Shown: positions 3,097 to 37,655 of the stretch, in pieces
Position numbering within the stretch: position 1 is the first letter of the stretch
Layout: every line of letters begins with the position of its first letter
From: an uncultured Sutterella sp.
GTDB taxonomy: Bacteria > Pseudomonadota > Gammaproteobacteria > Burkholderiales > Burkholderiaceae_F
DNA: 64,000 nt
Direction: 5' to 3'
NCBI GenBank assembly: GCA_949287305.1
Contig: CASEFX010000008.1
Location: 59,756 to 123,755, forward strand
The notes under the pieces: model-generated
Database searches by the model: none
What the model saw: only the letters and a program-made list of their open reading frames with translations
What the model was told of the DNA's origin: nothing
Translations under genes and position numbers: made by a program

Positions 3097-4431
3097 ATGG
3101 CAGACACTCGAAAAACCTGGTCGAGCCGCATCGGCTTCGTGCTCGCGAGCGCGGGCGCCGCGGTCGGACTCGGCGCGATCTGGAAATTCCCCTACATGGT
3201 GGGCACGAACGGCGGCAGCGCCTTCGTCTTTCCCTACATCATCATGACCTTCACGGTCGGGCTCGTTCTGCTCATCGCAGAGGTCGCCCTCGGGCGCGTG
3301 GGCCGCGGCGGCATCGTCACGGCCTACCGCAATCTCGGCGGCAAGGCCTGGGTGCCCGCGGGGTATCTAGGCGTCCTCACGGGCTTTCTCGTCTTGTGCT
3401 TTTACAGCGCGATCGGCGGCTGGACCCTCTCCTACTTCTGCGACGCGCTCACCGGCACGACCGTCATGCCCGACCAGGCGGCCTTGGGCGAACACTTCGG
3501 GCGCCTCACGGCGGACCCGGTGACGGCCATGGGCTTTCAGTGGCTCTTCCTGCTCCTGAACGGTCTCATTCTGGCGCTCGACGTCACGAAGGGGATCGAG
3601 CGCGTGAGCAAATTCCTCATGCCGCTTCTCTTCGTGCTGATGCTCGTTCTCATCGGACGGGGCCTCACGCTCCCGGGCGCCTGGGAAGGGGTCGAATACC
3701 TCTTTGCCTTCCGTCCCGAAGCCTTCTCCTGGGACGCGATGCTGCAGGCGATGGGCTTCACGTTCTTCTCGCTGTGCGTGGGCTGCGGCTGCATGCTCAC
3801 CTACGGCTCCTACCTCGACGAAAACTCGAATCTGCTCACGGGCTGCTCGTGGATCGCCTTTTTGGGCGTTCTCGCGTCGCTTTTGGGCGGCCTCATGATC
3901 ATGCCCGCGGTCTTCGCCTTCGGGCTTGATCCCACGGCGGGCCCGGGCCTCACCTTCATCACGATGCCCGCGGTCTTCTCGCAGATTCCCTTCGGGCAGT
4001 TCTTCGCGATCCTCTTTTATCTCTGCATCGTGGTCGCCGCCATCACCTCGTCGGTCTCGATGATGGAGATCATGGTCGCCTTCCTCGTCGACGAACACCG
4101 CTTCACGCGTCCCGCCGCGGCGGTGCTCTCGACGGTGCTCCTCGCCGTCGTGGGGGCGCTTCCGGCGCTCTCCTTCGGGGAACTCGCCGACGTGAAGTTC
4201 TTCGGCAAGACCTTCTTCGACCTCTTTGACTTCTTCACGAGCAACATTTCCCTTCCCGTGGGCGGCCTCGTGATTCTCTTCCTCGCGGGCTGGTACGCCT
4301 GGCCGAAGACGCGCTTTGCGATGGCCGGCAACCGGGAGCGCAGCGCCGCCTGGTTTGCGACGCTTCGCTTCCTCCTTCTCGTTCTCTCGCCGCTTCTCGT
4401 TCTCACCGTCCTCGTGACGGGTCTTCTCTGA
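3097..4431 (+). CDS. NSS family sodium-dependent transporter, paralogue 2
   Basis: 444 residues with GGAGA 11 bases ahead of the ATG. Opens MADTRKTWSSRIGFVLASAG, then the helix-1 signature GAAVGLGAIWKFPYMVGTNGG. The substrate/Na+ region around residue 230 reads VGCGCMLTYGSYL, more cysteine-rich than in the neighbours, so its substrate may differ. About 11 hydrophobic helices; inner-membrane Na+ symport of an amino acid is the family role. It is bounded by a terminator on both sides, suggesting independent control from the flanking paralogues. Confidence 0.9.
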   Translation: MADTRKTWSSRIGFVLASAGAAVGLGAIWKFPYMVGTNGGSAFVFPYIIMTFTVGLVLLIAEVALGRVGRGGIVTAYRNLGGKAWVPAGYLGVLTGFLVLCFYSAIGGWTLSYFCDALTGTTVMPDQAALGEHFGRLTADPVTAMGFQWLFLLLNGLILALDVTKGIERVSKFLMPLLFVLMLVLIGRGLTLPGAWEGVEYLFAFRPEAFSWDAMLQAMGFTFFSLCVGCGCMLTYGSYLDENSNLLTGCSWIAFLGVLASLLGGLMIMPAVFAFGLDPTAGPGLTFITMPAVFSQIPFGQFFAILFYLCIVVAAITSSVSMMEIMVAFLVDEHRFTRPAAAVLSTVLLAVVGALPALSFGELADVKFFGKTFFDLFDFFTSNISLPVGGLVILFLAGWYAWPKTRFAMAGNRERSAAWFATLRFLLLVLSPLLVLTVLVTGLL

Positions 4432-7894: not shown

Positions 7895-8686
7895 ATGACC
7901 CCCAAGACCCTGCATTTCGGCGCCTTTTCGCCCACAGGCGGCACGCGCCGCGTCATGCGCGCCCTCATCACGGGAACGCCCCGCGAAGGCTTCGCCATCC
8001 GCGACTTTGAATTCACGCTCCCCGAAGAGCGCCGCATGCGCCGCTTCACGGAAGAGGACGCCGTGGTTCTCTGCTCGCCCGTTTACTACGGCCGCATTCC
8101 GACGCCGCTTCAGACGAAGCTTCCCTTCGAAGGAAACGGCGCGCGGGCGCTCGCCGTCGTCTCCTACGGGAACCGCGCCTACGAGGACGCCCTTCGCGAA
8201 TGGCGCGACGTGCTCGAGCGCCACGGCTTCAAGGTCGTGGGCGGGGCCGCCTTCATCGCGCAGCATTCGAACATTCCGACCCTCGCCGCGGGCCGTCCCG
8301 ACGAACGCGACCGCGGGAGCGCGGCCGAATGCATGAAGGCCTTCCTCGCGAAACTCGCCGACGACGACGACACCCGTCCGACGCTCCCCGGAGGCGACGG
8401 TCCCTACCGTCCCTACGGCGCGTTGACGCCCGCTCCGCGCATCGTCGACCCGGGCCGCTGCCACCTCTGCGGCAACTGCGCCGACAACTGCCCGATGGGG
8501 ATCATCGATCCGCTCGACTTCGTCGTGACGGACCCCGAACTCTGCATCGCCTGCCGCGCCTGCATCAAGAGCTGTCCCGACGGGGCGAGAAACTTCCCGC
8601 CCGAAGTCGTCGAAAAGATGGCCCCGCTTCTCGCGCGCATTGAAGAGGCGAACGCCGCACCCAAGAGCCCCGAGTGGTTCTTCTGA
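7895..8686 (+). CDS. EFR1-type flavodoxin/4Fe-4S ferredoxin fusion protein
   Basis: 263 residues. The start at 7895 has GAGG eight bases upstream; an in-frame ATG at 7865 lacks one. The N-terminal half is a flavodoxin-like fold with the phosphate-loop type FSPTGGTRRV (about residues 9-18) and LCSPVYYGRIPTP near 60. The C-terminal third holds two 4Fe-4S motifs: CHLCGNCADNCP and CIACRACIKSCP (C-x2-C-x2-C-x3-C each). Such fusions act as cytoplasmic electron carriers or oxidoreductases in anaerobes. The partner enzyme is not evident from the neighbours. Confidence 0.8.
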   Translation: MTPKTLHFGAFSPTGGTRRVMRALITGTPREGFAIRDFEFTLPEERRMRRFTEEDAVVLCSPVYYGRIPTPLQTKLPFEGNGARALAVVSYGNRAYEDALREWRDVLERHGFKVVGGAAFIAQHSNIPTLAAGRPDERDRGSAAECMKAFLAKLADDDDTRPTLPGGDGPYRPYGALTPAPRIVDPGRCHLCGNCADNCPMGIIDPLDFVVTDPELCIACRACIKSCPDGARNFPPEVVEKMAPLLARIEEANAAPKSPEWFF

Positions 8687-24128: not shown

Positions 24129-24166
24129 AGCTCTCTCAGAGTCAATCTGAGGGAGCTTTCTTTTTG
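24129..24166 (+). terminator. Terminator of the tRNA pair
   Basis: AGCTCTCTCAGA (24129-24140) pairs with TCTGAGGGAGCT (24146-24157) and is followed by TTCTTTTTG. It overlaps the 3' end of the convergent cas2. Confidence 0.8.
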
Positions 24167-24429
24167 CGTATCATCTGAAATCCCGTCACCGTCTCGATGG
24201 CCGGGGTCAAGGTCTTTTCCCACAGGACATAGCCCGGACTTTTCACTCGGCTCTCCACGATCAGCATTCCTGATTCCGGCGTACAAGATTCCAACAGTTG
24301 TAAAACCACCTTACGAGCCAAAGCATCCGCGACGCTTGAGACGAAAACATTTGGTTTTGGCTCAATGAACCACAGTTTCATTTTCCCTCGAACCGCATCC
24401 GGCAAATTCTCAGCGATTACAACTAACAT
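24142..24429 (-). CDS. cas2: CRISPR-associated protein Cas2, type I-E
   Basis: 95 residues: MLVVIAENLPDAVRGKMKLW then FIEPKPNVFVSSV, the opening of Cas2e (compare E. coli MLVVVTENVPPRLRG). Cas2 forms the central dimer of the Cas1-Cas2 integrase that inserts new spacers. The gene overlaps cas1 by seven bases, so translation is coupled. It is the last gene of the cas series and runs into the tRNA terminator from the other side. Confidence 0.92.
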   Translation of the reverse strand: MLVVIAENLPDAVRGKMKLWFIEPKPNVFVSSVADALARKVVLQLLESCTPESGMLIVESRVKSPGYVLWEKTLTPAIETVTGFQMIRKKKAPSD

Positions 24430-25271
24430 CCCAAATCCTTAAAAATCGCTTCCAGATCTTGAGACAATTTCGACAGTAGATCAAAATCTACAGCCCTTTT
24501 AGTAAACTCCTCCACCAAACATACGCTTGTTATCTTTTCCATTTTACTTGCCAACATAAAAGCCAGATCAATAGTAAGAAACTCTTTATACAAATCAGAA
24601 AGATCATAAACAAAGGGAAGAGGCGATCCAGAATGAATAAAACCAATTCTAGGATCGTAACCATGTGCAATCACCGAAGATGTAATGACCGCATACAACA
24701 GGGAGTTAGCGTGAGTCAGAAAACGATTCACCTTATCGCTTGCCTCCATCTTTCCGGGAATGTACCGTCTACCGTTCCACGGAACCCCATACTCTTCAGA
24801 TTTACCAGCGTATAAGGCCCTCACTCGAACTCCTTCCATCCCCATCAGTGTCTGCAAAGACTTCCCTTCAAACAACTCATTCGGAAAACGCTCGGAGAAT
24901 AAGCGTTTAGCCACCGTCAATCGAGTTTCTGGATCTGTTGCACATCGAATCTGTTGCAGAAGATTTCGAGTATCTGCCGTTGGCGTCAGTCCTGATGCAT
25001 AGAAGCGCAAACTGTCATCACCAACCCAGCAAATTGTTGTATTGCTCGAACTGATCGCCTTAACCGCTTCATGTGTCACAGTGGTTCCTGGACCAAGAAG
25101 AATTGTAGCGATCGTTGCAACTGGAATTGCATAGATATCACGGTTTGCTCCCACCCATTTCACACTACTGTCATCAACCTCGATTCTTCCATGTTCAAAA
25201 TACAATAACGGATATCGATCTTTATTTTGCGGGAAAAAGTCCCTCGACAATTTGAAGATCACCTTTCTCAA
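24423..25271 (-). CDS. cas1: CRISPR-associated endonuclease/integrase Cas1, type I-E
   Basis: About 282 residues. No ATG fits: the frame opens with TTG codons at 25277 and 25271, and AAAGGAG sits seven bases before the one at 25271, so a TTG start is chosen there. Type I-E marks: KDRYPLLYFEHGRIEVDDSS, ATILLGPGTTVTHEAVKAI, GDDSLRFYASG, and the C-terminal domain HANSLLYAVITSSVIAHGYDPRIGF with the metal-binding Glu/His/Asp region. Cas1 with Cas2 integrates spacers. The start is only about 40 bases from the leader-distal repeat, so expression probably depends on transcription through the array or a promoter inside it. Confidence 0.9.
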   Translation of the reverse strand: MRKVIFKLSRDFFPQNKDRYPLLYFEHGRIEVDDSSVKWVGANRDIYAIPVATIATILLGPGTTVTHEAVKAISSSNTTICWVGDDSLRFYASGLTPTADTRNLLQQIRCATDPETRLTVAKRLFSERFPNELFEGKSLQTLMGMEGVRVRALYAGKSEEYGVPWNGRRYIPGKMEASDKVNRFLTHANSLLYAVITSSVIAHGYDPRIGFIHSGSPLPFVYDLSDLYKEFLTIDLAFMLASKMEKITSVCLVEEFTKRAVDFDLLSKLSQDLEAIFKDLGC

Positions 25272-25311
25272 AAACAATCTCCTTTCATTACGCCATCTTC
25301 AAACAAAATCA

Positions 25312-26623
25312 ACGTACACCCCCGCTTGCGCGAGGAAAAGTTCCGCACCCGCCCGTGCAATAGCAACAGATTGAAACACCCCCGCTTACGCAGGGAAGGC
25401 TTCTCGCTCCACTGAATCCAGCTGCCAGAGTTAGAAACACCCCCGCTTAGGCGGGGAAGACTGGGATTCATGCCCCAGCAGAAGTACCCCTTGGGAAACA
25501 CCCCCGCTTACGCGGGGAAGACTGTGTGTCATTTAAGCCTCGTGGGGCGCGGGTGGAAACACCCCCGCTTACGCGGGGAAGACCAGGCAGAACTACTCTG
25601 TGGATTCTTATATCCAGAAACACCCCCGCTTACGCGGGGAAGACCTCTGAAAGCCCGTCAGGCGGGCGGGCAAAGTGGAAACACCCCCGCTTACGCGGGG
25701 AAGACTCGTCGGGTCCAACCCAAGGGCGGAAGAGAATCGGAAACACCCCCGCTTACGCGGGGAAGACACATGCGGCGAGTTGCGCGTGCTGAGCGTCGAG
25801 GAAACACCCCCGCTTACGCGGGGAAGACCTGCCTCAGCTTGCGCCTTGGCCGCGGAGATTGGAAACACCCCCGCTTACGCGGGGAAGACCCGAGCGCATC
25901 TTTGACGCCCTCGTGAAGGAGGGAAACACCCCCGCTTACGCGGGGAAGACTCGATCACGATCTGCGCGTACGCCGCGGGCGAGGAAACACCCCCGCTTAC
26001 GCGGGGAAGACTCGCAACGAATCGTGTAAAGGTTCTTCGTCACGGAAACACCCCCGCTTACGCGGGGAAGACCCCATCGGCGACTTGACAGTGTCGTGCC
26101 CGTTGGAAACACCCCCGCTTACGCGGGGAAGACATTCCTTGCGCGGGCTTCCGCCACTCTCGAAGGGAAACACCCCCGCTTACGCGGGGAAGACGAGAAG
26201 ATCCCCTCGGAGAAGGCCGACTTGACGGAAACACCCCCGCTTACGCGGGGAAGACCTCGTCACTCAGTGTGGCGGGGCCCCTTTTCTCAGAAACACCCCC
26301 GCTTACGCGGGGAAGACATCTTCCAGGCTTCGCGAGCGTCCCCCGTCAGAGAAACACCCCCGCTTACGCGGGGAAGACGTGCGGATCGTGTGCAAGTAGC
26401 CGTCCGTTTTGGAAACACCCCCGCTTACGCGGGGAAGACTGGATCGGCGAACGTCATATACGAACACGCTCGGAAACACCCCCGCTTACGCGGGGAAGAC
26501 CGCCCGACAAAATCCACGCCTGGAATGCGATCTGGAAACACCCCCGCTTACGCGGGGAAGACATTGAAGGTCGACAAAATGATTAAAATCTTCTGGAAAC
26601 ACCCCCGCTTACGCGGGGAAGAC
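25312..26623 (-). CRISPR. Type I-E CRISPR array, 22 repeats and 21 spacers
   Basis: In crRNA sense (minus strand) the repeat is a 29-mer, GTCTTCCCCGCG-TAAGCGGGGGTGTTTCC, with hairpin arms CCCCGC/GCGGGG and 3' handle GTGTTTCC. Repeat starts on the plus strand: 25312, 25372, 25433, 25494, 25555, 25616, 25677, 25739, 25800, 25861, 25922, 25983, 26044, 26105, 26166, 26227, 26289, 26350, 26411, 26472, 26534, 26595. Spacers are 32 bases, three are 33 and the most leader-distal is 31. The leader side is at 26623 (next to cas5e): the repeats degenerate progressively at the other end (25312, 25372, 25433). The last repeat base in crRNA sense is variable (mostly C, sometimes T, once A), as expected if it derives from the PAM. 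The three leader-distal spacers resemble fdnG. Confidence 0.98.
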
Positions 26624-26682
26624 AGCAACATTTTGTGTAAAAACATTCGTTAAAACACATAATGTGCCGTTAAATACCAATC
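26624..26682 (-). promoter_or_regulatory. Short AT-rich CRISPR leader
   Basis: The 59 bases between the cas5e stop and the first repeat are AT-rich (e.g. CACATTATGTG, TTTTTACACAAAATG in crRNA sense). This is where a leader with promoter and integration signals should be; it is unusually short, so part of the signals may lie inside cas5e or the array may be read from the cas promoter. Confidence 0.55.
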
Positions 26683-27402
26683 TTAGCGTTTTCCACTAAG
26701 ATTCATGACCTTGACGTAACGCCCCACATACTTTTTATGCTCGCCAAACTCTACGGGAACATCGTATAGCAACATGCCCTCCAGATCTTCGGAAGAGGTT
26801 TCCGATACTTTTGTCACTACGGATCGCTTCTCCGAATCATCTATTTCTAAACTTTCCGTCAAAGCCTGAAAGGCCTCTTCGTAAGTTCCGAAAATTCCCT
26901 GGTAGACCAGGCAACTTGGCACACAAGACTTACGTCCCAAATAGATATCCCATTTCGGACACTTCAGACCAGAGACGAATTCTTCACGGAACCTTACGGG
27001 GATCTCCAAGATTACCGCAAAATCAGCATCTTGCAAAAACAACCGATAAGTCATCTTAGAGCCACTTACATTTTGAGCCGATTTTCCTTCGTATGTTTTA
27101 GGAATCAGTAACTTTTCCCAAGGATCGTTTTTATCGTATGCCGAACCGATCATCTGCATGTCGTTGAGGTAACTCTTCTCCGCCTTGCCGGAGAGTTCAA
27201 AGACCGTCATCGGCAAGGCGTTGCAAAGGGCAAGCCGCTCCCTTTGAGGACCGCCAAGACCGCAGGCGCAGAAGATCATGCCCAAAACACCCGATTTGGT
27301 TGGGAAGGGTAACGTCCCTCTTTGCCAGAATCTCGAACGGTCCCCCCAGCTTTGAAGGGGACCCTCAAGACGGAGCAGTAAAAAAGCTCTGTCCGTTGTC
27401 AT
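26683..27402 (-). CDS. cas5e: Type I-E Cascade subunit Cas5e (CasD)
   Basis: 239 residues, opening MTTDRAFLLLRLEGPLQSWG, then PFPTKSGVLGMIFCACGL, the glycine-containing N-terminal RAMP pattern of Cas5e. It binds the 5' handle of crRNA in Cascade. The start overlaps the cas7e stop by four bases (ATGA). Downstream there is no further cas gene but the array leader, an unusual arrangement for I-E loci where cas6e and cas1-cas2 normally follow. Confidence 0.92.
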   Translation of the reverse strand: MTTDRAFLLLRLEGPLQSWGDRSRFWQRGTLPFPTKSGVLGMIFCACGLGGPQRERLALCNALPMTVFELSGKAEKSYLNDMQMIGSAYDKNDPWEKLLIPKTYEGKSAQNVSGSKMTYRLFLQDADFAVILEIPVRFREEFVSGLKCPKWDIYLGRKSCVPSCLVYQGIFGTYEEAFQALTESLEIDDSEKRSVVTKVSETSSEDLEGMLLYDVPVEFGEHKKYVGRYVKVMNLSGKR

Positions 27403-28442
27403 TTCTCAATCGCCTCCATGACCTGATCGATCACTTCGTCAATACTTGTCTCATCGGAAAAGACCACGCGTTTTTTCAGACCGTAGAGTGACCCGGCCTG
27501 TTTTTCCTGAACGGTAAGTTGTTCTTCCAACGCCTTAATACTCGGCGTCAGGTAACCGCTCACCCGACCGCTCACGACGGGCTTGTCAAAGGAGCACTGC
27601 ATTCTCTGTCCGTTTCGCACCAGGACCTGAGCGTAATCCCAGAGGCAGGAGGCCGACATCGTAGCCTGACGAGCTCCGGGGACTGCCAAGTAGAGCGCCT
27701 TGATGAAGGAGGAGACGGCATAGCTCAGATCTTCATCCGATTCAATGCCGAGCGTTTCCTTTAGTTGCTCAACATTGAGCGAAATGTAACGGTAGTACGT
27801 CGCCGAAGTAAATTCCGTCGTACCCATATGACTGGACTTAGATCCAATTTCACAGTCATCCAATGCTGTGAAAAAATCCAGATCCTGAATTACTTCGTGC
27901 GTTGAAAAGGCGTGACTAAAACTTGCTGCGGCTTCGATATTCATAGACGGTGCTTTAGCCACCATCCGGCCGAACAAACCGATATCTAGACCGTCTTGTA
28001 CGGTTGCCAAAGACACCTTCTTAAACATCTTCGGTTCTTTCTTCTGCTTCTTGAGTTTCTCGGCTTCCTTTTGCAAGACTTCTGCATCGCAATTTTTCTT
28101 CTCAATCAGCTGAGCGAGCTCCGTGTACTCAGAATCAGACAAGAAAATCAAAGAATCATCCGAGAGTTGACCGCCAACCACTTGAGCGCAGGCAATCGCT
28201 TTCGATTCCTCGCAGCCTCGCGAAACAAGTTTCTCCGCCAGCGTCTCAACGATTTTCTTCGTACGCAAACCAAGCTTTACACCAAGGTCGTGCATCTGAA
28301 GGCGCACGGCGCGCTTCCAGGCCTGCGAGCTCACGCGGGCACGCGTCACGCCTCCGATCACGCAGGATTTTGGACTGCCCGTGTCATCGCGATTCAGACA
28401 AGAGACGGGGAAGGACTGCAAAATGTGAAATTCAATGATCAT
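27399..28442 (-). CDS. cas7e: Type I-E Cascade backbone subunit Cas7e (CasC)
   Basis: 347 residues. Starts MIIEFHILQSFPVSCLNRDD followed by TGSPKSCVIGGVTRARVSSQAWKRAVR, the standard Cas7e opening that contacts crRNA; SHAFSTHEVIQDLDFFTALDD and GARQATMSASCLWDYAQVLVR further on. Six copies form the crRNA-bound Cascade backbone. A lysine-rich stretch (EKLKKQKKEPKMFKK, about 127-141) lies in the middle. The start is 21 bases after the cas6e stop. Confidence 0.93.
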   Translation of the reverse strand: MIIEFHILQSFPVSCLNRDDTGSPKSCVIGGVTRARVSSQAWKRAVRLQMHDLGVKLGLRTKKIVETLAEKLVSRGCEESKAIACAQVVGGQLSDDSLIFLSDSEYTELAQLIEKKNCDAEVLQKEAEKLKKQKKEPKMFKKVSLATVQDGLDIGLFGRMVAKAPSMNIEAAASFSHAFSTHEVIQDLDFFTALDDCEIGSKSSHMGTTEFTSATYYRYISLNVEQLKETLGIESDEDLSYAVSSFIKALYLAVPGARQATMSASCLWDYAQVLVRNGQRMQCSFDKPVVSGRVSGYLTPSIKALEEQLTVQEKQAGSLYGLKKRVVFSDETSIDEVIDQVMEAIEK

Positions 28443-28463
28443 GGCGTTGAGCCTCTCTGAAAG

Positions 28464-29075
28464 TTATTGCAAAGAAATGGGAATGATCTGCATGAGACCG
28501 TAGCCGAAGGCTTTGCCCCGGCCGAAACCGTTGGCTACGGATTGTTTGAATCGGTTCGCATCGAGCACCCGGACGATGCCGTCCACACGAAGTTCGGCAA
28601 AGGTCACGCGATGTCCCTCCTTCACAAAGCGGGTCGCGCCGTAGCGGCCGATCTGCAAGTGAGTGAAGGCAAACCCCGAACGCTTGGCCTTGTCGTGAAG
28701 CCAGTTTTCCAACTCGCCGCGCGGCACCGCCTGACGACGACCGTCAACACATCGACAGGGATTGACGTCCATCCGAATACGATAGATTTCATGCTCCAAA
28801 AAGGAGTCGGGAAGCTTTTTAACCATCACACAGACGTCGTCGGGTAAGTCCTCCGTCAAAGGAGGACGATTGCCGAGAAGCAACACTTCCCGCCCCGCAA
28901 GATGTTCTCCACGGTCCGCCCACTGCACGCCGCGCGCAAACGGGCCTTTCCCGTCAGTTTCACGACACGGATACAGGTCGAGCACCATGCGGTGAAGCGA
29001 GTAGCGATCCCTAATCCGAAGTCTCGCCATGGCAGTAGGTTTTAGGATGATTTTCCCGGCATACAGTTCACTCAT
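28464..29075 (-). CDS. cas6e: Type I-E crRNA-processing endoribonuclease Cas6e (CasE)
   Basis: 203 residues. YAGKIILKPTAMARLRIRDR, then YSLHRMVLDLYPC near residue 25-37 (the histidine is at the position of the catalytic His of CasE), and the glycine-rich end SVANGFGRGKAFGYGLMQII. Cas6e cuts within each repeat and keeps the 3' hairpin. The gene overlaps cse2 by eight bases and precedes cas7e; in E. coli and most I-E loci casE follows casD, so this position is unusual. Confidence 0.9.
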   Translation of the reverse strand: MSELYAGKIILKPTAMARLRIRDRYSLHRMVLDLYPCRETDGKGPFARGVQWADRGEHLAGREVLLLGNRPPLTEDLPDDVCVMVKKLPDSFLEHEIYRIRMDVNPCRCVDGRRQAVPRGELENWLHDKAKRSGFAFTHLQIGRYGATRFVKEGHRVTFAELRVDGIVRVLDANRFKQSVANGFGRGKAFGYGLMQIIPISLQ

Positions 29076-29643
29076 CTCCCTCTCCCTCTTCTTTTTCGAA
29101 ATCCGGCTTCCGCGCCCTGTCCTGGATAGAACGATAGAAATCCTTCACCCATCGAGCCTTTACCGCATCTCTACAATCGTCACCGAATTGAAACTGAATC
29201 AAATCATCTAAAAGCTTTATGTAGTCCAATTCACCTGGCCTGCGGGTCCGAATAAGACGAAGGTACGGACGCAATACACGACACAGTTCGGAAACGTCGC
29301 GACATACTAGGAGTCGTCGCAAACGTACCGTTGCAGGGTGTTGCTCCAATTTTTGTTCATCCAACAACTTTTCGTTCTTTTCATCACCCCACGCAAGGGG
29401 GAGCAATTTTCCAAAGGAATACGTACCGTTTATTTCCTTTTCCTCAAGGGCTATAGAATTCCCTATTAAGACATACACGGAACGAATATCTTCATATCCT
29501 ATATCACAAAAAGAAACAAGATCCCCCCATATAGCAGTTTCCCGGACACCACTCCCAGCATTTCTCATACGAGAACGAAAACTGGCGTCATCCTTTTTTC
29601 TACGAAAAACATACTCAACAAATGCCTTAGCTCCTTCAGTCAT
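29068..29643 (-). CDS. cse2: Type I-E Cascade small subunit Cse2 (CasB)
   Basis: 191 residues, helical and charged. RRKKDDASFRSRMRNAGSG near residue 14-32 and RLRRLLVCRDVSELCRVLRP near 110-130 match the Cse2 plan (compare the conserved R-R and L-R-R-L-L motifs). Cse2 dimers hold the displaced DNA strand. The start is five bases after the cse1 stop. Base composition is distinctly AT-rich compared with cas3 and the host flanks. The C-terminus is acidic (DFEKEEGEGDE). Confidence 0.85.
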   Translation of the reverse strand: MTEGAKAFVEYVFRRKKDDASFRSRMRNAGSGVRETAIWGDLVSFCDIGYEDIRSVYVLIGNSIALEEKEINGTYSFGKLLPLAWGDEKNEKLLDEQKLEQHPATVRLRRLLVCRDVSELCRVLRPYLRLIRTRRPGELDYIKLLDDLIQFQFGDDCRDAVKARWVKDFYRSIQDRARKPDFEKEEGEGDE

Positions 29644-29647
29644 TCAC

Positions 29648-31162
29648 TCAACCCCTCTCATAAATCCCATAAAACTTCGGTTCATTCTTGCAGTTTGCCA
29701 ATAACTGTCTCGGCGTATTACTAGGGCAACTCCTTCTAAACACATCCAATGCAATTCTACAAATTTCTTCATGAAGATTTCTAGCATCCAATCCTTCACA
29801 CACTCGAATCAACTCAGAAGCCAATTCTCCGCACCGGGACCAAAATCTTTCTCGAACACGTTGAGTTTGCTTACTCAACTTTATCTTCTTAGATTTAAGT
29901 TTCTCGATATCTTGATTAGATGAGTTTTTATCTCTTGAAGCGCTACCACAAGATTGAAAATACCTCTCTGATGCATTTACCAAACGTTCAGCAACCTGTT
30001 TTAAACAATCCATCTCAACTTGATAGCGCACATAAAACAGCGACAAACGAAAATCTCTAGAAAACCTAATTTCAGAATCAACCACATCATCTTTCATACT
30101 CAAAAATTGTTCCTTGCCTTGAGATGAAACCTGCAATCCAAAACACCACAAACCAGTCAAGTTAGATTTTCTCGCATTAGCAAATTTTACATTTAAACAT
30201 TGATAATCAGGAGTTGGAGCACAAAAATTCAAAATTGAATCCAGTTGTCTCCACGGCTGATTCATAGTGTTTGCCGCTAGAGCACCGTAGAGATGTTGCT
30301 TTACACCACTCTCCTTTCTCACGGTTACTGAAAAATCGACATGCCCTGTAGACACATCTGGCATAACAACGCCACTCGTGGAATGAAGAATCTCTCCATC
30401 TAAAAAACAAAACCGAATCATTGGGATAAGATGACCAAAATAAGAGCGGCTCAATCTCCTTGCCACCTCATCATCTTCCATCGGTAAAGCTTCCCAGGGA
30501 GGGATACCTATCTCATCCACATAAGCAACTTCTTCGAGCAATTCTTCCGACATCAAAGAAAGACGCAATGTCTCAAAAAAAGTATCTCCCAACACAAATG
30601 TATGTAAGACCCCCTCCTTGCCAAGAGCTGGGCAAAGCGGCGCCACCGCATTTTTATTAAATCCTTTCCTAAGCACTATCTTAGAATCTATTTTTGTGCG
30701 AAAATAGGACATTATACAATGCATCAAAACAATTTTTGTTTTTCTAGCATCGTCCAAATCCTCCTCCATCACATTCGACTGAAAAACTACAGTTGTATTA
30801 CCAGAGCTTGCACCTGGAACATACGCAGAGATAGGAAGTTGTTTATCTTTCGAAGCTCGGATATCAGGATATTGTAGAAAGGGACGTTCAGGATCATAGA
30901 GATCGAAGAGTTCCCGTTTTTCTTCTAGATAACGGAGGACAGCCGAACAAAGCCCATCGTCATCCAATTTCTCCCATTCCTTTTCCGTTTTTAATCGACA
31001 AGCTGCCTGACAAACCGCAATAAGAAAACGAAACAGACAAAAACGATCAATCGAATTTTCCTGTAACGCAACCGTTCCGCTTTCCTGAAAAATAGACCGT
31101 AAGCTCAGGACACCTCGGTTCGTACGAATCCACGGTTCATCCACCAAATTAAAACTTTTCAT
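29648..31162 (-). CDS. cse1: Type I-E Cascade large subunit Cse1 (CasA/Cas8e)
   Basis: 504 residues from ATG 31162 (MKSFNLVDEPWIRTNRGVLS; a GTG at 31168 is the alternative). FNLVDEPWI is the Cse1 signature; FLQYPD near 113 is also typical. Cse1 recognises the PAM and recruits Cas3. This is the most AT-rich gene of the locus. A lysine-rich segment (ELKSKKIKLSK type, about 420-430) is seen. Only 53 bases separate it from cas3, so one transcript is likely. Confidence 0.92.
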   Translation of the reverse strand: MKSFNLVDEPWIRTNRGVLSLRSIFQESGTVALQENSIDRFCLFRFLIAVCQAACRLKTEKEWEKLDDDGLCSAVLRYLEEKRELFDLYDPERPFLQYPDIRASKDKQLPISAYVPGASSGNTTVVFQSNVMEEDLDDARKTKIVLMHCIMSYFRTKIDSKIVLRKGFNKNAVAPLCPALGKEGVLHTFVLGDTFFETLRLSLMSEELLEEVAYVDEIGIPPWEALPMEDDEVARRLSRSYFGHLIPMIRFCFLDGEILHSTSGVVMPDVSTGHVDFSVTVRKESGVKQHLYGALAANTMNQPWRQLDSILNFCAPTPDYQCLNVKFANARKSNLTGLWCFGLQVSSQGKEQFLSMKDDVVDSEIRFSRDFRLSLFYVRYQVEMDCLKQVAERLVNASERYFQSCGSASRDKNSSNQDIEKLKSKKIKLSKQTQRVRERFWSRCGELASELIRVCEGLDARNLHEEICRIALDVFRRSCPSNTPRQLLANCKNEPKFYGIYERG

Positions 31163-31215
31163 CTCCACTCCAACGTTTCGTTGATCGGTTCAGACCATTG
31201 TTCATCATTCATGCG

Positions 31216-33711
31216 TCACTTCACGTCGCATTCAAACCAAAGTCCGAATTTTTTCGAATACCGGCCGTCCGAGTTGCCCGTGAGAGGATCGATCATGCGT
31301 TCTTCCTCCAGCAAACGCAACGGCATCGACGAAAACCGTCCTGCGCTTTGGAAGAAATGACGCACCTTTTCAGGCCACCCGTCCCAAGACTTGCAGGTGC
31401 AGCCTGAGAAGATCCGCTCGGAACGAAGAATCCGCTCTTCCGCCCAGACGGCCAGTTCTCCAGGATTCTCGGGAATTGGGTCGAGTTCCAATTTTCGGAT
31501 CACCAACACTTCGTGTGTCGGCAACTCGATATATCGCGTCAAAGGTTCCTCTCGTTCGGACTGCCGATTGGTTTCCGCACTCTCGGCCGCTGCAATTTTC
31601 CTTTCGCTGTCCTCTTCCATTTCCGTCTGCAGACGATACATGACGGGATTTTCGGACTCATCCCGCTTTTCGTAGACACGCTCGAGAAGTTCTCTCACCG
31701 ATCCTGGGAAAGGCTGCGCTCTGTCCGTCGGCAAAGAGCGCAACACCTCGTATGTTCTGGCGAGCACATAGGGGTAATAGACGAAACTCGGGAACGGACA
31801 ATCGGGATCGTCGGACGGATCTTTCAGGATCACAGTCTCGGCACGCGTACAGGCAGCAGGGCGGGGTGTATCGGCGTGTCGCCAAAGACGACCGATTCGC
31901 TGGACCAACAGGTCGAACGGAGCAAGGCGACTCACCAGAAAATCCGCGTCCAGATCCAATGACTGTTCGAGCACCTGGGTTCCGACCAGAACCGAACCCG
32001 TTCCTTGGTTGCGGGAACCTTTACCGGCTTTACCGTACGTGCTCGTCCAATACGTTTCGTTTTCCCGACGCTCGACGGGACGGAATTTGGAATGCAGAAG
32101 ACCGAAGGGAAGTCCCATCGACTGAAAACGCCGGGCGACGTCCTGCGCCTTTCTCACGGTGTTCTCGATCCAGAGGACCCGTTCTCCGCTTTGCACTCTG
32201 CGGACCACCTCTTCGAAAATCGGTTCTTCTTGTTCGCTCAGGCGCAACCAAACGGGGTGGTTTTCTTGAGGAGCGACCGTCCACTCGCGGACCGAAATTT
32301 CATCGGTCTTCACCGTGCAACGCAGTGCGGAGCGGTATTGCTTCCAGACGGAAGGATCTTCTTCCAAAAGACCGGCCAACGTTCCGTCGGTGAGCGTCGC
32401 ACTGAGGATGACGACGACCGCCTTCAAGGTCCTCAAATCCTGCAACAGTTTTCTGATGAGTTCCGAGGTATAGGTATCGTAGGAGTGAATTTCATCGAAA
32501 ATCACCACCTTGCCGGCCAGGCCCGCCAAACGCAACGATGAGAACCGAGCGGGAAGAGAAGCAAGTAGCGCCTGGTCTACGGTTCCGACGGAGAAGGGAG
32601 CCAACAGTGCCTGGCGGTTCGGACGGAACCAGTCTTCTCCCGGGGCCGCATCCATTCCCATGCGCAAGGCGCTGGTTCTCGCACCACTGTGCAAAAGCCG
32701 CACAGTCTTTTCCTCTCCGTACAAAGCGGCAACATACTCGCGTACGCGGTCGACCATGCGGTTGCTCGTTAGCTGCGTGGGAAGGGCAAAGTAGAGCCCG
32801 TCCGCGTCGCCTCTCGCGAGGGCCTGCGTCGCCAAGGCCAGTGCCGCTTCCGTCTTGCCGTAACCCGTCGGCGCCTCCAACACGTATATCCCAGGACCTT
32901 TGTAGAGGCTACTTACTTCAGCCTGCAGACGTCTAGGAGCGTATCCGAAAAGATCCGAAAAATCCGTCTTCTTGACTGGAGTGACGTGCTCAAAACCAGC
33001 ATCCTGCAACAACTTCGAGGCGATCTCCCGTTGCTCACCCTGCGGATACGAATTCTCCTTCCGAGAGGCGATCCAGTCGGAGAGAACCAATGCACCGGCC
33101 CACAGCTTGCGGATCACTTTATTCTCACAGATGGAATCCGAGAACTGGAGCCATTGCTCATTTCCTCCCAACTCCTTCAAGATTTCCCTGGTGAGAGCAA
33201 TGCGCCCGTTCTGCCAAAGCGGACCGCCGAGGTAAGCCTCTACGCCTAAGACCTGTGTCAACTCCTTTTCGTGATGACAACCGACCGTTTCATGCGCCAA
33301 CAAATGATTCGCATGAAGCTCAAGCAATACAGCAACACTCACGGCTTCGTGGCGGATTTCCAATTTTTCCTTCATGCGTTCAGACAGCCCCGATTCCAAC
33401 AAACGGAACCACGAAGGATCTACGTCAAACGCGTCAAACCACAGCCGCTTGTCTTCTTCCGACACATGCTTCAAAAGCTTATTAAGGAAAAGGGGATTGG
33501 CTTTCCCGACATCGTGCGCACCAATCAAGCCAACTAAAGTCTCAGGAAGTAACTCGTCTAAAGCATTCCAACGTCGCAAGGTGCGAAATTGACGGAACAC
33601 CTCGCCCGCGAGGAGGCCATGCTGGAGCACACTGACGCCGAGCTCGGTCTTTCCGTCAACGGCGACGGTTTTAGCGGGAAATGTTCCCCATGCGGTCTCT
33701 TCAATCATCAT
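31216..33711 (-). CDS. cas3: CRISPR-associated helicase/nuclease Cas3, type I-E
   Basis: About 831 residues from ATG 33711 (MMIEETAWGTFPAKTV), the position matching the usual Cas3 opening; the frame is open to 33813 with further ATG 33783 and GTG 33813 choices. HD nuclease domain first: LQHGLLAGEVFR and GLIGAHDVGKANPLF. The helicase follows: Walker A EAPTGYGKTEAALALA, DEIH box VVIFDEIHSYD, VILSATLTDG, and motif VI FDLLVQRIGRLWRHAD. Cas3 degrades the target DNA after Cascade binding. It is more GC-rich than cse1 and cse2. It heads the cas series and is divergent from fdnG. Confidence 0.93.
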   Translation of the reverse strand: MMIEETAWGTFPAKTVAVDGKTELGVSVLQHGLLAGEVFRQFRTLRRWNALDELLPETLVGLIGAHDVGKANPLFLNKLLKHVSEEDKRLWFDAFDVDPSWFRLLESGLSERMKEKLEIRHEAVSVAVLLELHANHLLAHETVGCHHEKELTQVLGVEAYLGGPLWQNGRIALTREILKELGGNEQWLQFSDSICENKVIRKLWAGALVLSDWIASRKENSYPQGEQREIASKLLQDAGFEHVTPVKKTDFSDLFGYAPRRLQAEVSSLYKGPGIYVLEAPTGYGKTEAALALATQALARGDADGLYFALPTQLTSNRMVDRVREYVAALYGEEKTVRLLHSGARTSALRMGMDAAPGEDWFRPNRQALLAPFSVGTVDQALLASLPARFSSLRLAGLAGKVVIFDEIHSYDTYTSELIRKLLQDLRTLKAVVVILSATLTDGTLAGLLEEDPSVWKQYRSALRCTVKTDEISVREWTVAPQENHPVWLRLSEQEEPIFEEVVRRVQSGERVLWIENTVRKAQDVARRFQSMGLPFGLLHSKFRPVERRENETYWTSTYGKAGKGSRNQGTGSVLVGTQVLEQSLDLDADFLVSRLAPFDLLVQRIGRLWRHADTPRPAACTRAETVILKDPSDDPDCPFPSFVYYPYVLARTYEVLRSLPTDRAQPFPGSVRELLERVYEKRDESENPVMYRLQTEMEEDSERKIAAAESAETNRQSEREEPLTRYIELPTHEVLVIRKLELDPIPENPGELAVWAEERILRSERIFSGCTCKSWDGWPEKVRHFFQSAGRFSSMPLRLLEEERMIDPLTGNSDGRYSKKFGLWFECDVK

Positions 33712-34547
33712 TTCTCTCTTCAGGCGTCGAATCTGAAACAAAGCTTCTGGCCACTCATAGTAGGTGAAGCGCTTGCTGTACATCGAGAAAGCATACCGTG
33801 ATTTCAACACCACAATTTACTAGACACTGGATCGCTGAAACGACAATTGAATTCAAATCACAATTTCTTCAAAAAATCCCTTGCAACACAATATTTTTAA
33901 GAGAATCAAAATTGTTGCCTCCTATCCACATGAAAGAGCTTCTTGCAAAAAATTTTGTCGCATGACTGTCAACGAGCACCGTCGCCAACCAGAACGCCTC
34001 GCTCGAGACCTGCAGGATCGCCCTCACATAGGAGGCCCTCTCTAACACAAGCCACAGCAACTTCCCTCACTCAAACTCCTTTGTAAGACATAAAAATCTT
34101 TCGTCCTACTTCTTTTTATCAAGCTACACCTCTCGGATGATTCATTCCGTCTCCATCAACTACCATCGCATCAAGGCCATTCTTTTCTTTTGAGAATTAT
34201 TCTCAAACAAAGACTGACTACCTCATCGTTATTCCGTTAACGAATAGCGGATGTTTCGCATCCGGAGAGGCTTTCATGAGAATTTTTGAGATCTTAGTCC
34301 TTTCCCCGATAAGACACTACCTCCTTTGAATCCCCCTCCCCTACGGTTCAGCCTCGTGATCTTTTTCTCCTCCTTTTGAAGACTGGGCAACTAAGAAAAA
34401 AACGAAGAAACTTTGGGCCTACGACGAGGAAACCTCTCTTTTTCCTAAAGAACGGCTGTTCTCGTCACCTTACAACCGGCTCTATGCCGGACCCCTCTTT
34501 CGTCGGAGTCTTCCACCGACGGCAACTTTCCCCAAGGAGGATTTTTC
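33712..34547. other. 836-bp divergent regulatory region between cas3 and fdnG
   Basis: No gene is supported here apart from a possible longer cas3 start (up to 33813). The region is AT-rich and should hold the cas3 and fdn promoters. It contains a Fur-box-like palindrome (34191-34205) and a small hairpin CGGATG-TTTCG-CATCCG (34248-34264) in what would be the fdn leader. No selenocysteine or molybdenum-cofactor element could be recognised by eye. Confidence 0.5.
34191..34205. promoter_or_regulatory. Fur-box-like 7-1-7 palindrome
   Basis: TGAGAATTATTCTCA is a perfect inverted repeat, TGAGAAT-T-ATTCTCA, matching the known Fur heptamer pattern TGAnAATnATTnTCA. It lies about 340 bases upstream of fdnG and about 480 upstream of cas3. 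Iron control of an Fe-S/molybdenum enzyme would make sense, but the distance leaves it open which gene it serves. Confidence 0.5.
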
Positions 34548-37500
34548 ATGGAGCTCTCCCGCAGAGGATTCCTAAAGCGAGGCTTTCTCTTGGGCGGCGG
34601 CGGTCTCGCCTCTTCCCTCTCCGGCGGCGCGTTCGCCGCTCCGAAGGAGAAAAAGGTCTACAAACTTGCAAATATCTCGGAAAGCACTTCGATTTGCTGT
34701 TACTGCTCCGGCGGTTGCGGCACGATCTGCTCGACCCGCGACGGCCAACTGATCAATTTGGAAGGCGACCCCGACCATCCGGTAAACGTCGGCGGTCTCT
34801 GCCCGAAGGGCGCCGCCATGTGGGGTCTGCGCAATGTGGTGACGAAGGACCGCAAGGCCCAACTGCACCCCGACCGCGTGCTTTATCCGCTCGTTCGCCG
34901 CCCCGGCAAGAAGGAGTGGGAGCGTATCTCGTGGGAAGAAGCTCTTGACGGCATCGCGCGCCGCGTCAAGACGACGCGCGACGCCACCTTCGTCGAGAAG
35001 GAAGACAGCGTGACCGTCAACCGTTGCGACGGCATCGCCTCGCTCGGCGCCGCTCAGCTCAACAACGAGGAAGCCTGGCTGACGCAAAAGTTCAACCGGA
35101 CTCTCGGCATCGTCGCGATCGACAACCAGACGCGCGTCTGCCACAGCTCGACCGTCGCCGGTCTCGCTCCGAGCTTCGGACGCGGCTCGATGACCTCGCA
35201 CTGGTGCGACTTCCAGAATGCGGACGTGATCATGTCCATCGGCTCCAATAATGTGGAAAATCACCCTTTGAGCTCCAGATGGGTCGAACGCGCCCAGGAC
35301 CGCGGCGCCACCTGGATCGTGGTCGACCCGCGCTTCACGCGTTCGGCCGCGCAGGCCGACATTTACGGGCGCATTCGTCCGGGGAGCGACCTGGCCTTCT
35401 ACGGCGGTCTCATCAACTACATCCTCTCGAAGAAACTCTATCACCGCGACTACATCGTGGCCTTCACGAACGCCGCCTGTCTTCTTCGCAAGGACTACGA
35501 ATTCGATCCGAACACCGGGCTCTTCTCGGGCTGGGATCCGGAAACGAAAACCTATTCCGATGAAACCTGGGGCTATGACGTCGACCACAAGGAAAAGTGG
35601 GATACGTCCGACGGCTCGTCCTTCGCGTGGGTTCGTGAACCGGGCGTGCCCGAATTCACGACGCCCGACCTCAAGGTCCTGAAGCGCGATGAAACGCTCA
35701 CGGATCCGATGTGCGTCTTGAACGTCATGGCCCGCCACTATGCACGCTACACGCCCGACGTCGTGGCGGAGGTGACCGGCATGGACAAGGACGTCATGCT
35801 CAAGATCTGGGACGTCTACGCCTCCACGGGCCGCCCCGACAAGTCGGGCTCGATCCTCTACGCGCTCGGTCAGACACAGCACTCCTACGGCAGTCAGAAC
35901 TGCCGCGCCATGTGCATCGTGCAGCTTCTTCTAGGCAACATCGGCATCGCGGGCGGCGGCATCAACGCCCTTCGCGGCGAACCGAACGTGCAGGGTTCGA
36001 CCGACGTCGGCGCCTCCTGCCATCAGGCGCCGGGCTATCTCTCCTGGCCCACGGGCAAGAAGCACCCGACCCTTCGCGACTACCTCGAGAAGGAAACGTA
36101 CGCTGCCGGTTACTATGCCAACAAGCCGAAATTTTGGGTCTCTAGCTTGAAGGAATGGTTCGGCGACAACGCGACCGTCGAAAACGACTACTGCTACGAC
36201 CTGCTGCCTAAGATCAGCCCGAAGAAGTCCTACGGCGACTATGCGACGATCACGACCTTCAACGCCATGCGCGACAACCAGACGAAGGGCTACTTCTGCT
36301 GGGGCATGAATCCCGCGCACTCGACGCCCAACGCCAAACACGCCCGCAAGGCGATGGCGAAGCTCGACTGGCTCGTCGTGGCGGACTGGTTCCTCACCGA
36401 AACGGCCACCTTCTGGGAAGCGCCCGACATGAATCCGGAGGAAATCCAGACCGAGGTCTATTTCCTGCCGGCTGCGCTCATCTATGAAAAGACGGGCTCG
36501 ATCAACAATAGCGGCCGCTGGGTCCAGTGGAGAGAAAAGGCAATTGAGCCTCCGGGAGAGTGCAAGTCGGACTTTGAGATCATGGAGCTCCTTTTCGAGC
36601 GCATCCGCGCCCTCTATGAAAAGGAAGGCGGCGCCAACCCCGATCCGATCCTCAAGGCTCAGATGAGCTACAAGATCGACGGCAAGTACGACATCCGTGC
36701 GCTCTGCTGGGCTCTGAACGGCTTCGACGTCAAGACCGGCAAGCTCCTCAAGGGCTACGGCGACCTCAAGGCCGACGGCTCGACCGCCTGCGGCATCTGG
36801 ATCTTCTCGGGCTACTACAACAACGAGGAAGCCAAGCTCGATCCGATGAAGCAGCCGATGACGCGTCGTTCGAAGGAAGACCCGACGGGGCTCGGCCTCT
36901 ATCCGGGTTGGTCGTTCGCATGGCCCGCGAACCGCCGCATTCTCTACAACCGCGCCTCGGCCGACGCTCAAGGGAAGCCCTGGAATCCCAAGCGCGTCCT
37001 CGTCGAATGGGACGGCCAGAAGTGGAAGCAGAACGACGTGGGCGACTTCGTGACCGCGCTTCCGCCCGACACGAACGCCTTCTTTATGACGTGGGAGCAG
37101 CATGCGCGACTCTTCGCGTATTCGATGGGGGACGGTCCCCTGCCCGAACACTTCGAGCCCTGGGAATCGCCCACGAAGAACGTCTTGAACGGCCGCAACA
37201 ACGCCCCGATGACGCTCTACACGGAGGATCCCTCCGTACAGCGCGCGAGCGCCGAAGAGTTCCCGTACGCCGTGACGACCTACTCCGTGGTCGAACACTG
37301 GCAGTCGGGCACGCAGACGCGCAACATCCCGTGGTTGAACGAAATCATGCCGGCGAACTTCATCGAAATTTCCGAGGAGCTCGCGCGTGAAAAAGGCATC
37401 AAGAGCGGCGACTGGGTCCGCGTCTGGAACAAGCGCGGCAGCGTCAAGGTGCAGGCCGTCGTGACGATCCGCATGCAGCCCATGAAGGTGAACGGCAAGC

Positions 37501-37655
37501 TTACGCACGTCGTCGGCATGCCGCACCACTTCTCCTGGGCCACGAAGCTCGCCACGGGCGACAACGTCAACGACCTCACCCCGAACGTGGGCGATCCGAT
37601 GTCGTTCATTCCGGAATACAAGGCCTTCCTTGTCAACCTTGAAAAAGCCGCCTGA
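34548..37655 (+). CDS. fdnG: Formate dehydrogenase (quinone, periplasmic) alpha subunit, Cys variant
   Basis: 1035 residues with AAGGAGG before the ATG. Tat signal: MELSRRGFLKRGFLLGGGGL, exported folded. Fe-S cluster ligands C50, C53, C57, C85 (ICCYCSGGCG ... GGLCPKG). The Mo/W ligand is cysteine at residue 198 (NQTRVCHSSTVAGLAP), codon TGC, where E. coli FdnG has selenocysteine. The bis-MGD fold continues with GSNNVENHPLSSRW, VVDPRFTRSA, KGYFCWGMNPAHS near 580-592, and the C-terminal GDWVRVWNKRGSV. It oxidises formate to CO2 at the periplasmic face and passes electrons to FdnH. First gene of fdnGHI-fdhE-fdhD. Three leader-distal spacers of the nearby CRISPR array match its codons at 34691-34722, 36284-36315 and 36507-36538. 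Confidence 0.93.
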   Translation: MELSRRGFLKRGFLLGGGGLASSLSGGAFAAPKEKKVYKLANISESTSICCYCSGGCGTICSTRDGQLINLEGDPDHPVNVGGLCPKGAAMWGLRNVVTKDRKAQLHPDRVLYPLVRRPGKKEWERISWEEALDGIARRVKTTRDATFVEKEDSVTVNRCDGIASLGAAQLNNEEAWLTQKFNRTLGIVAIDNQTRVCHSSTVAGLAPSFGRGSMTSHWCDFQNADVIMSIGSNNVENHPLSSRWVERAQDRGATWIVVDPRFTRSAAQADIYGRIRPGSDLAFYGGLINYILSKKLYHRDYIVAFTNAACLLRKDYEFDPNTGLFSGWDPETKTYSDETWGYDVDHKEKWDTSDGSSFAWVREPGVPEFTTPDLKVLKRDETLTDPMCVLNVMARHYARYTPDVVAEVTGMDKDVMLKIWDVYASTGRPDKSGSILYALGQTQHSYGSQNCRAMCIVQLLLGNIGIAGGGINALRGEPNVQGSTDVGASCHQAPGYLSWPTGKKHPTLRDYLEKETYAAGYYANKPKFWVSSLKEWFGDNATVENDYCYDLLPKISPKKSYGDYATITTFNAMRDNQTKGYFCWGMNPAHSTPNAKHARKAMAKLDWLVVADWFLTETATFWEAPDMNPEEIQTEVYFLPAALIYEKTGSINNSGRWVQWREKAIEPPGECKSDFEIMELLFERIRALYEKEGGANPDPILKAQMSYKIDGKYDIRALCWALNGFDVKTGKLLKGYGDLKADGSTACGIWIFSGYYNNEEAKLDPMKQPMTRRSKEDPTGLGLYPGWSFAWPANRRILYNRASADAQGKPWNPKRVLVEWDGQKWKQNDVGDFVTALPPDTNAFFMTWEQHARLFAYSMGDGPLPEHFEPWESPTKNVLNGRNNAPMTLYTEDPSVQRASAEEFPYAVTTYSVVEHWQSGTQTRNIPWLNEIMPANFIEISEELAREKGIKSGDWVRVWNKRGSVKVQAVVTIRMQPMKVNGKLTHVVGMPHHFSWATKLATGDNVNDLTPNVGDPMSFIPEYKAFLVNLEKAA

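Follow-up and report, generated by a model that had tools for sequence, protein, structure and literature searches.

Spacers that match chromosomal genes of other species have been established in archaea (PMC3285040, Brodt et al. 2011; Turgeman-Grott et al. 2019, as summarised in PMC12814878), judging by the portions of these reports available to us. According to the available text of two further reports, Pelobacter carbinolicus carries a type I-E self-targeting spacer on hisS (PMC2923632), and the guides known as CreA derive from small CRISPRs with worn repeats (PMC8501985). A formate dehydrogenase has been described that adjoins a CRISPR locus and, in the text available, is not targeted by it (PMC4522967). 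In the accessible parts of the literature on formate dehydrogenase in connection with CRISPR spacers or self-targeting, and on Sutterella CRISPR arrays, no fdnG spacers were found.

Here, we analysed a 64,000-nucleotide stretch of the genome of an uncultured Sutterella sp. (the window). It carries an apparently complete type I-E system, with cas3, cas8e, cse2, cas7e, cas5e, cas6e, cas1e and cas2e accompanied by an array for which repeats of ca. 29 nt and spacers of 32 nt were taken as the type I-E standard. A separate Cas3 HD model scored below its curated cut-off while the other cas family models scored above theirs. The array sits between cas5 and cas1 (24166-26683), placing cas1-cas2 downstream of it, and a sister species shows the same layout. 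The features of the system are as follows.

24166..24429, minus strand: cas2e, approximate start (TIGR01873)
24423..25277, minus strand: cas1e (TIGR03638)
25313..26623, minus strand: type I-E CRISPR array, whole, 22 repeats and 21 spacers; the crRNA sense is the minus strand
25313..25340, minus strand: terminal repeat R0, 7 substitutions, 3 of them in a handle preceding no spacer; hairpin kept
25341..25372, minus strand: spacer S0, leader-distal, encoding ICCYCTGGCG; 25372 is the PAM-derived base and 25340 is perhaps spacer too
25373..25400, minus strand: repeat R1, 2 substitutions; hairpin kept
25401..25433, minus strand: spacer S1 including the PAM-derived base, encoding NSGSWIQWSEK
25434..25461, minus strand: repeat R2, 1 substitution, in the loop; hairpin kept
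25462..25494, minus strand: spacer S2 including the PAM-derived base, encoding KGYFCWGMNP
26683..33813, minus strand: cas5e, cas7e, cas6e, cse2, cas8e and cas3, family models above cut-off

S0, S1 and S2, the three spacers farthest from the leader and probably the oldest, correspond to segments of a gene for a formate dehydrogenase alpha subunit (fdnG), as had been claimed in the original prediction, and their matches in the window all lie inside the resident fdnG open reading frame. This gene starts 735 bases past cas3, about 8 kb from the array.

34548..37655, plus strand: resident fdnG, formate dehydrogenase-N alpha subunit (TIGR01553; 1035 aa)
34689..34723, plus strand: S0 site and PAM place, with TCG in place of AAY
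36281..36315, plus strand: S2 site, with GAC; seed mismatches 1 and 7
36504..36538, plus strand: S1 site, PAM AAC present; seed mismatches 3, 4 and 5

As in the archaeal cases, so far as the available text describes them, these spacers are nearer to non-mobile chromosomal genes of relatives than to their own genome. Unlike those cases, the carrier is a bacterium with a type I-E system, three consecutive spacers lie on one gene and there is no perfect donor; the resident allele lacks the PAM at one site, and the differences of one spacer consist of unread wobble positions plus one. The hisS spacer of Pelobacter likewise lies on a housekeeping gene but, as far as that report goes, matches its own gene, whereas Sutterella fdnG lacks the PAM or the seed match at all three sites. 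Degenerate repeats around the guides are shared with CreA, which in the text available represses a toxin gene, whereas S0 to S2 belong to an ordinary array and have their targets within a coding sequence. New with respect to the known cases are thus the run of three spacers on one gene, the PAM-less resident allele at one site and a six-base pattern of differences in S0. With this locus, spacers against other species' chromosomal genes would be represented in a bacterium and on a respiratory gene.

The best ungapped matches of the three spacers in the window outside the array were 23/32 at 34691(+) for S0, 23/33 at 36506(+) for S1 and 30/33 at 36283(+) for S2, each on the sense strand of fdnG, so that the common orientation noted earlier stands and the earlier hand counts (23/32, 23/32 and 29/32) were within one base. 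Counting base 25340 as spacer, S0 matches the resident gene at 24/33. When 39 distinct fdnG genes (51 extracted, identical ones merged) were compared, best scores rose to 28/33, 28/33 and 31/33 for S0, S1 and S2, whereas the other 18 spacers of the array reached 20 to 22 and dinucleotide shuffles (300 per spacer) at most 24. This bears out the view that chance is very unlikely. Against the resident gene, the observed value was reached by 0, 1 and 0 of 2,000 dinucleotide shuffles for S0, S1 and S2, respectively. Further, 11 array stretches in 8 genomes supplied 197 spacers for comparison with the set of sequences gathered, and of these only S0, S1 and S2 had an fdnG match of at least 25 bases among their best places.

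The decay of the flanking repeats that had been described earlier is real in terms of substitutions, of which R0 to R2 carry 10, but did not extend to structure. All three repeats still fold into the 7-bp hairpin (-11.0, -11.8 and -12.7 kcal/mol for R0, R1 and R2 compared with -14.0 for the consensus), both stem changes yielding U-G pairs. Handle changes among the three are confined to R0, and the 5' handles before S0, S1 and S2 are intact. Judging by these features, this old part of the array, though worn, should be serviceable.

Differences between the spacers and the resident gene are concentrated at codon position 3 (16 of 22, with 5 at position 1 and 1 at position 2; binomial P = 0.0002). 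As decay within the array alone would ignore codons, most of the divergence presumably arose in a working gene, and the spacers probably come from an fdnG that was functional and had diverged. For each spacer the best match in another species exceeds that in the resident gene (S0 28 vs 24, S1 28 vs 23, S2 31 vs 30 of 33), and the spacers resemble the chromosomal gene of other species more than their own genome, for which 6 of 29 own-genome candidates were scored. The proposal of a homologous fdnG as the source, as opposed to the resident allele in its present form, holds in that S0 and S1 have better matches in many relatives than in the resident gene. A viral or plasmid source was not found. 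No fdnG relative and no site pattern was detected in IMG/VR, and fdnG matches in plasmid and phage records stayed at or below ca. 44% protein identity among the matches listed (20 of 1,083 plasmid, 20 of 29 phage). Searching with the array itself gave no place covering S0 to S2 in phages (6 records), and among plasmids the matches listed (20 of 33 records) look like repeat or array matches.

We sought fdnG in 101 genomes (90 with a match) and in a genome collection (26 loci). A single homologue matching all three spacers at 32/32, which had been put forward as a test, was not found among the fdnG genes compared, and no donor species could be named by a perfect or near-perfect match: the best sums over the three spacers were 82/98, in Duodenibacillus (L010/L038), and 81, in the sister species. 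In 67 genomes from the family, a search for a GSWIQWSEK-like pattern returned the array itself and one version with a single mismatch to Arg, and a search for ICCYCTGGCG in 399 genomes of the order (13 from the family) returned the array itself. Compared with relatives, S0 encodes Thr for Ser and S1 encodes Ser for Arg twice. The Thr occurs in none of the aligned Sutterellaceae fdnG genes, and all three residues are absent among the database matches listed (120 of 7,030; representatives of 90% clusters), which makes some change of the spacers after capture possible.

When the 99 bases of the spacers were placed on an fdnG tree (1,000 resamplings only), the likelihood was best at the stem of the resident and sister genes, and the three branches of this clade had a summed weight of ca. 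0.5. The Duodenibacillus stem was 2.2 log units behind, yet held the largest single weight (0.175), and the spacer branch was long (0.17). The placement is ambiguous. Taken with the scores, it points to an unsampled relative from the resident, sister or Duodenibacillus part of the family as the donor, an ancestral resident allele being the less likely choice.

As to the mode of uptake, several spacers (three consecutive ones) target one gene on one strand, the sense strand, and this would fit one episode with priming. Our main reading, to which we assign a probability of about 0.6, is that S0 to S2, with their homology to parts of fdnG, go back to a single early event in which DNA of a relative entered the cell and was captured as spacers. 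A fragment of the relative's chromosome or a mobile element would have brought in fdn DNA with a working but diverged Sutterellaceae fdnG; S0 would have been captured first, and it would have primed the acquisition of S1 and S2, again from that strand. The array would still yield processed guides and would defend the cell against fdn DNA arriving from relatives; the resident gene would be spared, lacking the PAM at the S0 site and carrying seed mismatches at the other two.

The PAM was derived from phage targets. Two contigs with phage genes (endolysin, terminase, major head) in the window's genome hold protospacers of six distinct spacers from this array and that of the sister species. The three best (33, 32 and 29 of 33) are preceded by CAC, CAC and AAC and the three weaker ones (28, 27 and 26 of 33) by TAG, AGC and AAC; two further weak matches elsewhere have GGG and CCC. 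This evidence is thin and suggests a PAM of NAY. On one of these contigs (L127, G000:C31; phage head and terminase), spacers S16 and S11 of the array match 26/33 at 3135-3167 and 29/33 at 8144-8176, both with AAC, and sister spacers match up to 32/33. Among fdnG genes, NAY is found at the S0 site in 35/38, at the S1 site in 19/39 and at the S2 site in 31/39, compared with an fdnG background of 11%. The PAM coincides with an Asn codon at the S0 and S1 sites.

At the S0 PAM place, the resident gene and that of the sister species have TCG (Ser) for Asn, the sole other exception being a distant gene. Asn is present in 120/120 database relatives among the matches listed, and P0001, 95% identical to the resident FdnG protein, keeps it. 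The three seed mismatches of the resident S1 site are the most among Sutterellaceae genes, and at the S2 site the resident has two and the sister one. No site in the resident gene thus combines PAM and seed: the S0 site is without a PAM, and the seed is mismatched three times at S1 and twice at S2. In E. coli, according to the available part of a preprint (PMC12871591), direct interference is for the most part blocked once the seed holds two mismatches, and the most harmful mismatches are those to C or G at positions 1, 2 and 4.

The strongest alternative to uptake from a relative is that the spacers were taken from the ancestor's own fdnG, only ca. 8 kb away, and that the resident gene escaped later through changes in PAM and seed. 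We consider this unlikely, if still worth weighing. In its favour, fdnG adjoins cas3 only in the window's genome and the sister species among the 26 named loci checked, the best tree placement is the resident-plus-sister stem, and the resident gene is altered in PAM or seed at all three sites. At the other 25 named fdnG loci, several of which have little flanking DNA, not one of five cas proteins was found. By the ratio of observed to expected PAM-plus-seed deviations, the resident ranks first (9 vs 5.2) and the sister second (8 vs 5.0) of 27 genes, but neither enrichment is significant (P 0.10 and 0.16); PAM places alone gave P 0.09 for the resident and 0.005 for the sister. Protospacer changes derived in the resident are likewise not significantly enriched (6 vs 3.0, P 0.11; conservation-matched P 0.21). 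The long spacer branch and the better fit of S0 and S1 to relatives also speak against it.

The sister species (L031) provides a further comparison. Its fdnG is 97% identical, it shares the cas-fdnG arrangement, and a 27-repeat array lies in the same place. None of the 21 x 26 spacer pairs of the two arrays is shared, the best pair having 19 bases alike. As its array has none of these spacers, the sister represents a PAM-less fdnG allele without the guide. It nevertheless has as many changes in the protospacers (7 vs 2.5, P 0.06), which speaks against escape as the only cause. Within the sister array, the terminal spacer occurs twice (490-522 and 673-705), a sign of rearrangement at the old end, and another spacer (1894-1927) resembles the 5' half of tRNA-Gln genes, with ca. 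90% identity to three copies in its own genome.

S0 would still have targets among relatives. In Cascade, every sixth guide base is flipped out, according to the available text of PMC5904413, and with an in-frame PAM codon the five flipped-out bases fall on wobble positions. Compared with the family majority, S0 differs at 5/5 unread wobble positions and 0/5 read ones (Fisher P = 0.004), and S0 and S1 together at 7/9 unread and 1/9 read ones (P = 0.008). The pattern was noticed in the mismatches first and tested after, making these P values post hoc. It is present in part in S1 and absent in S2. As controls, 1,624 guides were taken at all in-frame AAY codons in 27 fdnG genes, and a single one had an S0-like pattern (also post hoc). 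In 14/25 other Sutterellaceae fdnG genes, S0 would meet a PAM, match the seed perfectly and have no more than one read mismatch (position 16), since its other mismatches sit on bases unread by Cascade. Under published type I-E rules S0 is predicted to recognise those 14 genes and would thus still lead Cascade to many relatives' fdnG. Much of this reach belongs to the site, since it is one of four in fdnG where control guides reach at least 10 genes. S1 and S2 stay within one read mismatch in no fdnG gene tabulated.

These observations suggest a rule for any type I-E system, in that an in-frame PAM codon (here Asn, AAY) puts the five bases ignored by Cascade on wobble positions; such a guide would be blind to half its wobble sites and could follow a coding target across species. 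A single PAM codon would offer a simple self/non-self switch. A more far-reaching possibility is that S0 has been kept by selection as a family-wide guide against fdnG and is linked to the PAM-less fdnG 8 kb off beside cas3, the two forming an allele-exclusion module. The drift of S0 almost wholly on unread bases and the hairpins retained by its repeats would be in line with this, and we regard it as improbable. If this were so, transfer of the locus into a relative would lead to cutting of the Asn-PAM fdnG resident there, with repair from the protected allele being favoured, and the locus would be a naturally occurring CRISPR element of the poison-antidote or homing type, acting on a gene of core metabolism.

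Partly matching crRNAs might also bind the resident fdnG without cutting and tune its expression. Binding of this kind has been described for partial matches in the available portions of PMC6990116 and PMC5904413, and S2 matches the resident gene at 30/33. However, the sites lie at nt 144 (S0), 1,736 (S2) and 1,959 (S1) of the open reading frame, inside the coding sequence and none at a promoter, where a CreA-like guide would have its partial match, and the PAM is missing for S0 and the seed imperfect for S1 (three mismatches) and S2 (two), all of which makes a regulatory role very improbable. Chance resemblance, or a different gene family with the same short motifs, can claim only that no perfect match was found and is practically negligible, given the far lower fdnG scores of the other 18 spacers and the shuffles, the codon-position pattern of the differences and the position of all three spacers on one gene and one strand.

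Further observations concern fdnG itself and copies of the repeat outside the array. The resident gene (34548-37655) has no in-frame TGA, while several distant homologues of the order have one internal TGA, presumably encoding selenocysteine. In the window's genome, the contig L125 (G000:C35) carries two solitary units resembling the host repeat (ca. 3400-3420 and 3486-3510, the second 27/28), which closely follow a phage endolysin gene and precede chromosomal genes (cstA). A spacer of the sister species has a 33/33 protospacer on this contig (1306-1338). The two units are candidates for a prophage RNA anti-CRISPR (compare PMC10651486, in the part available). Another solitary repeat-like unit lies near an autotransporter-type (ESPR) gene (L077 3056-3090; G000:C26:163055-163089). 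A human-gut phage record (MT835524.1; L134 3001-3037) carries a solitary copy of the array's repeat, ca. 98% identical over the matched pieces, and the repeat core is present in 10 IMG/VR contigs (L135-L144).
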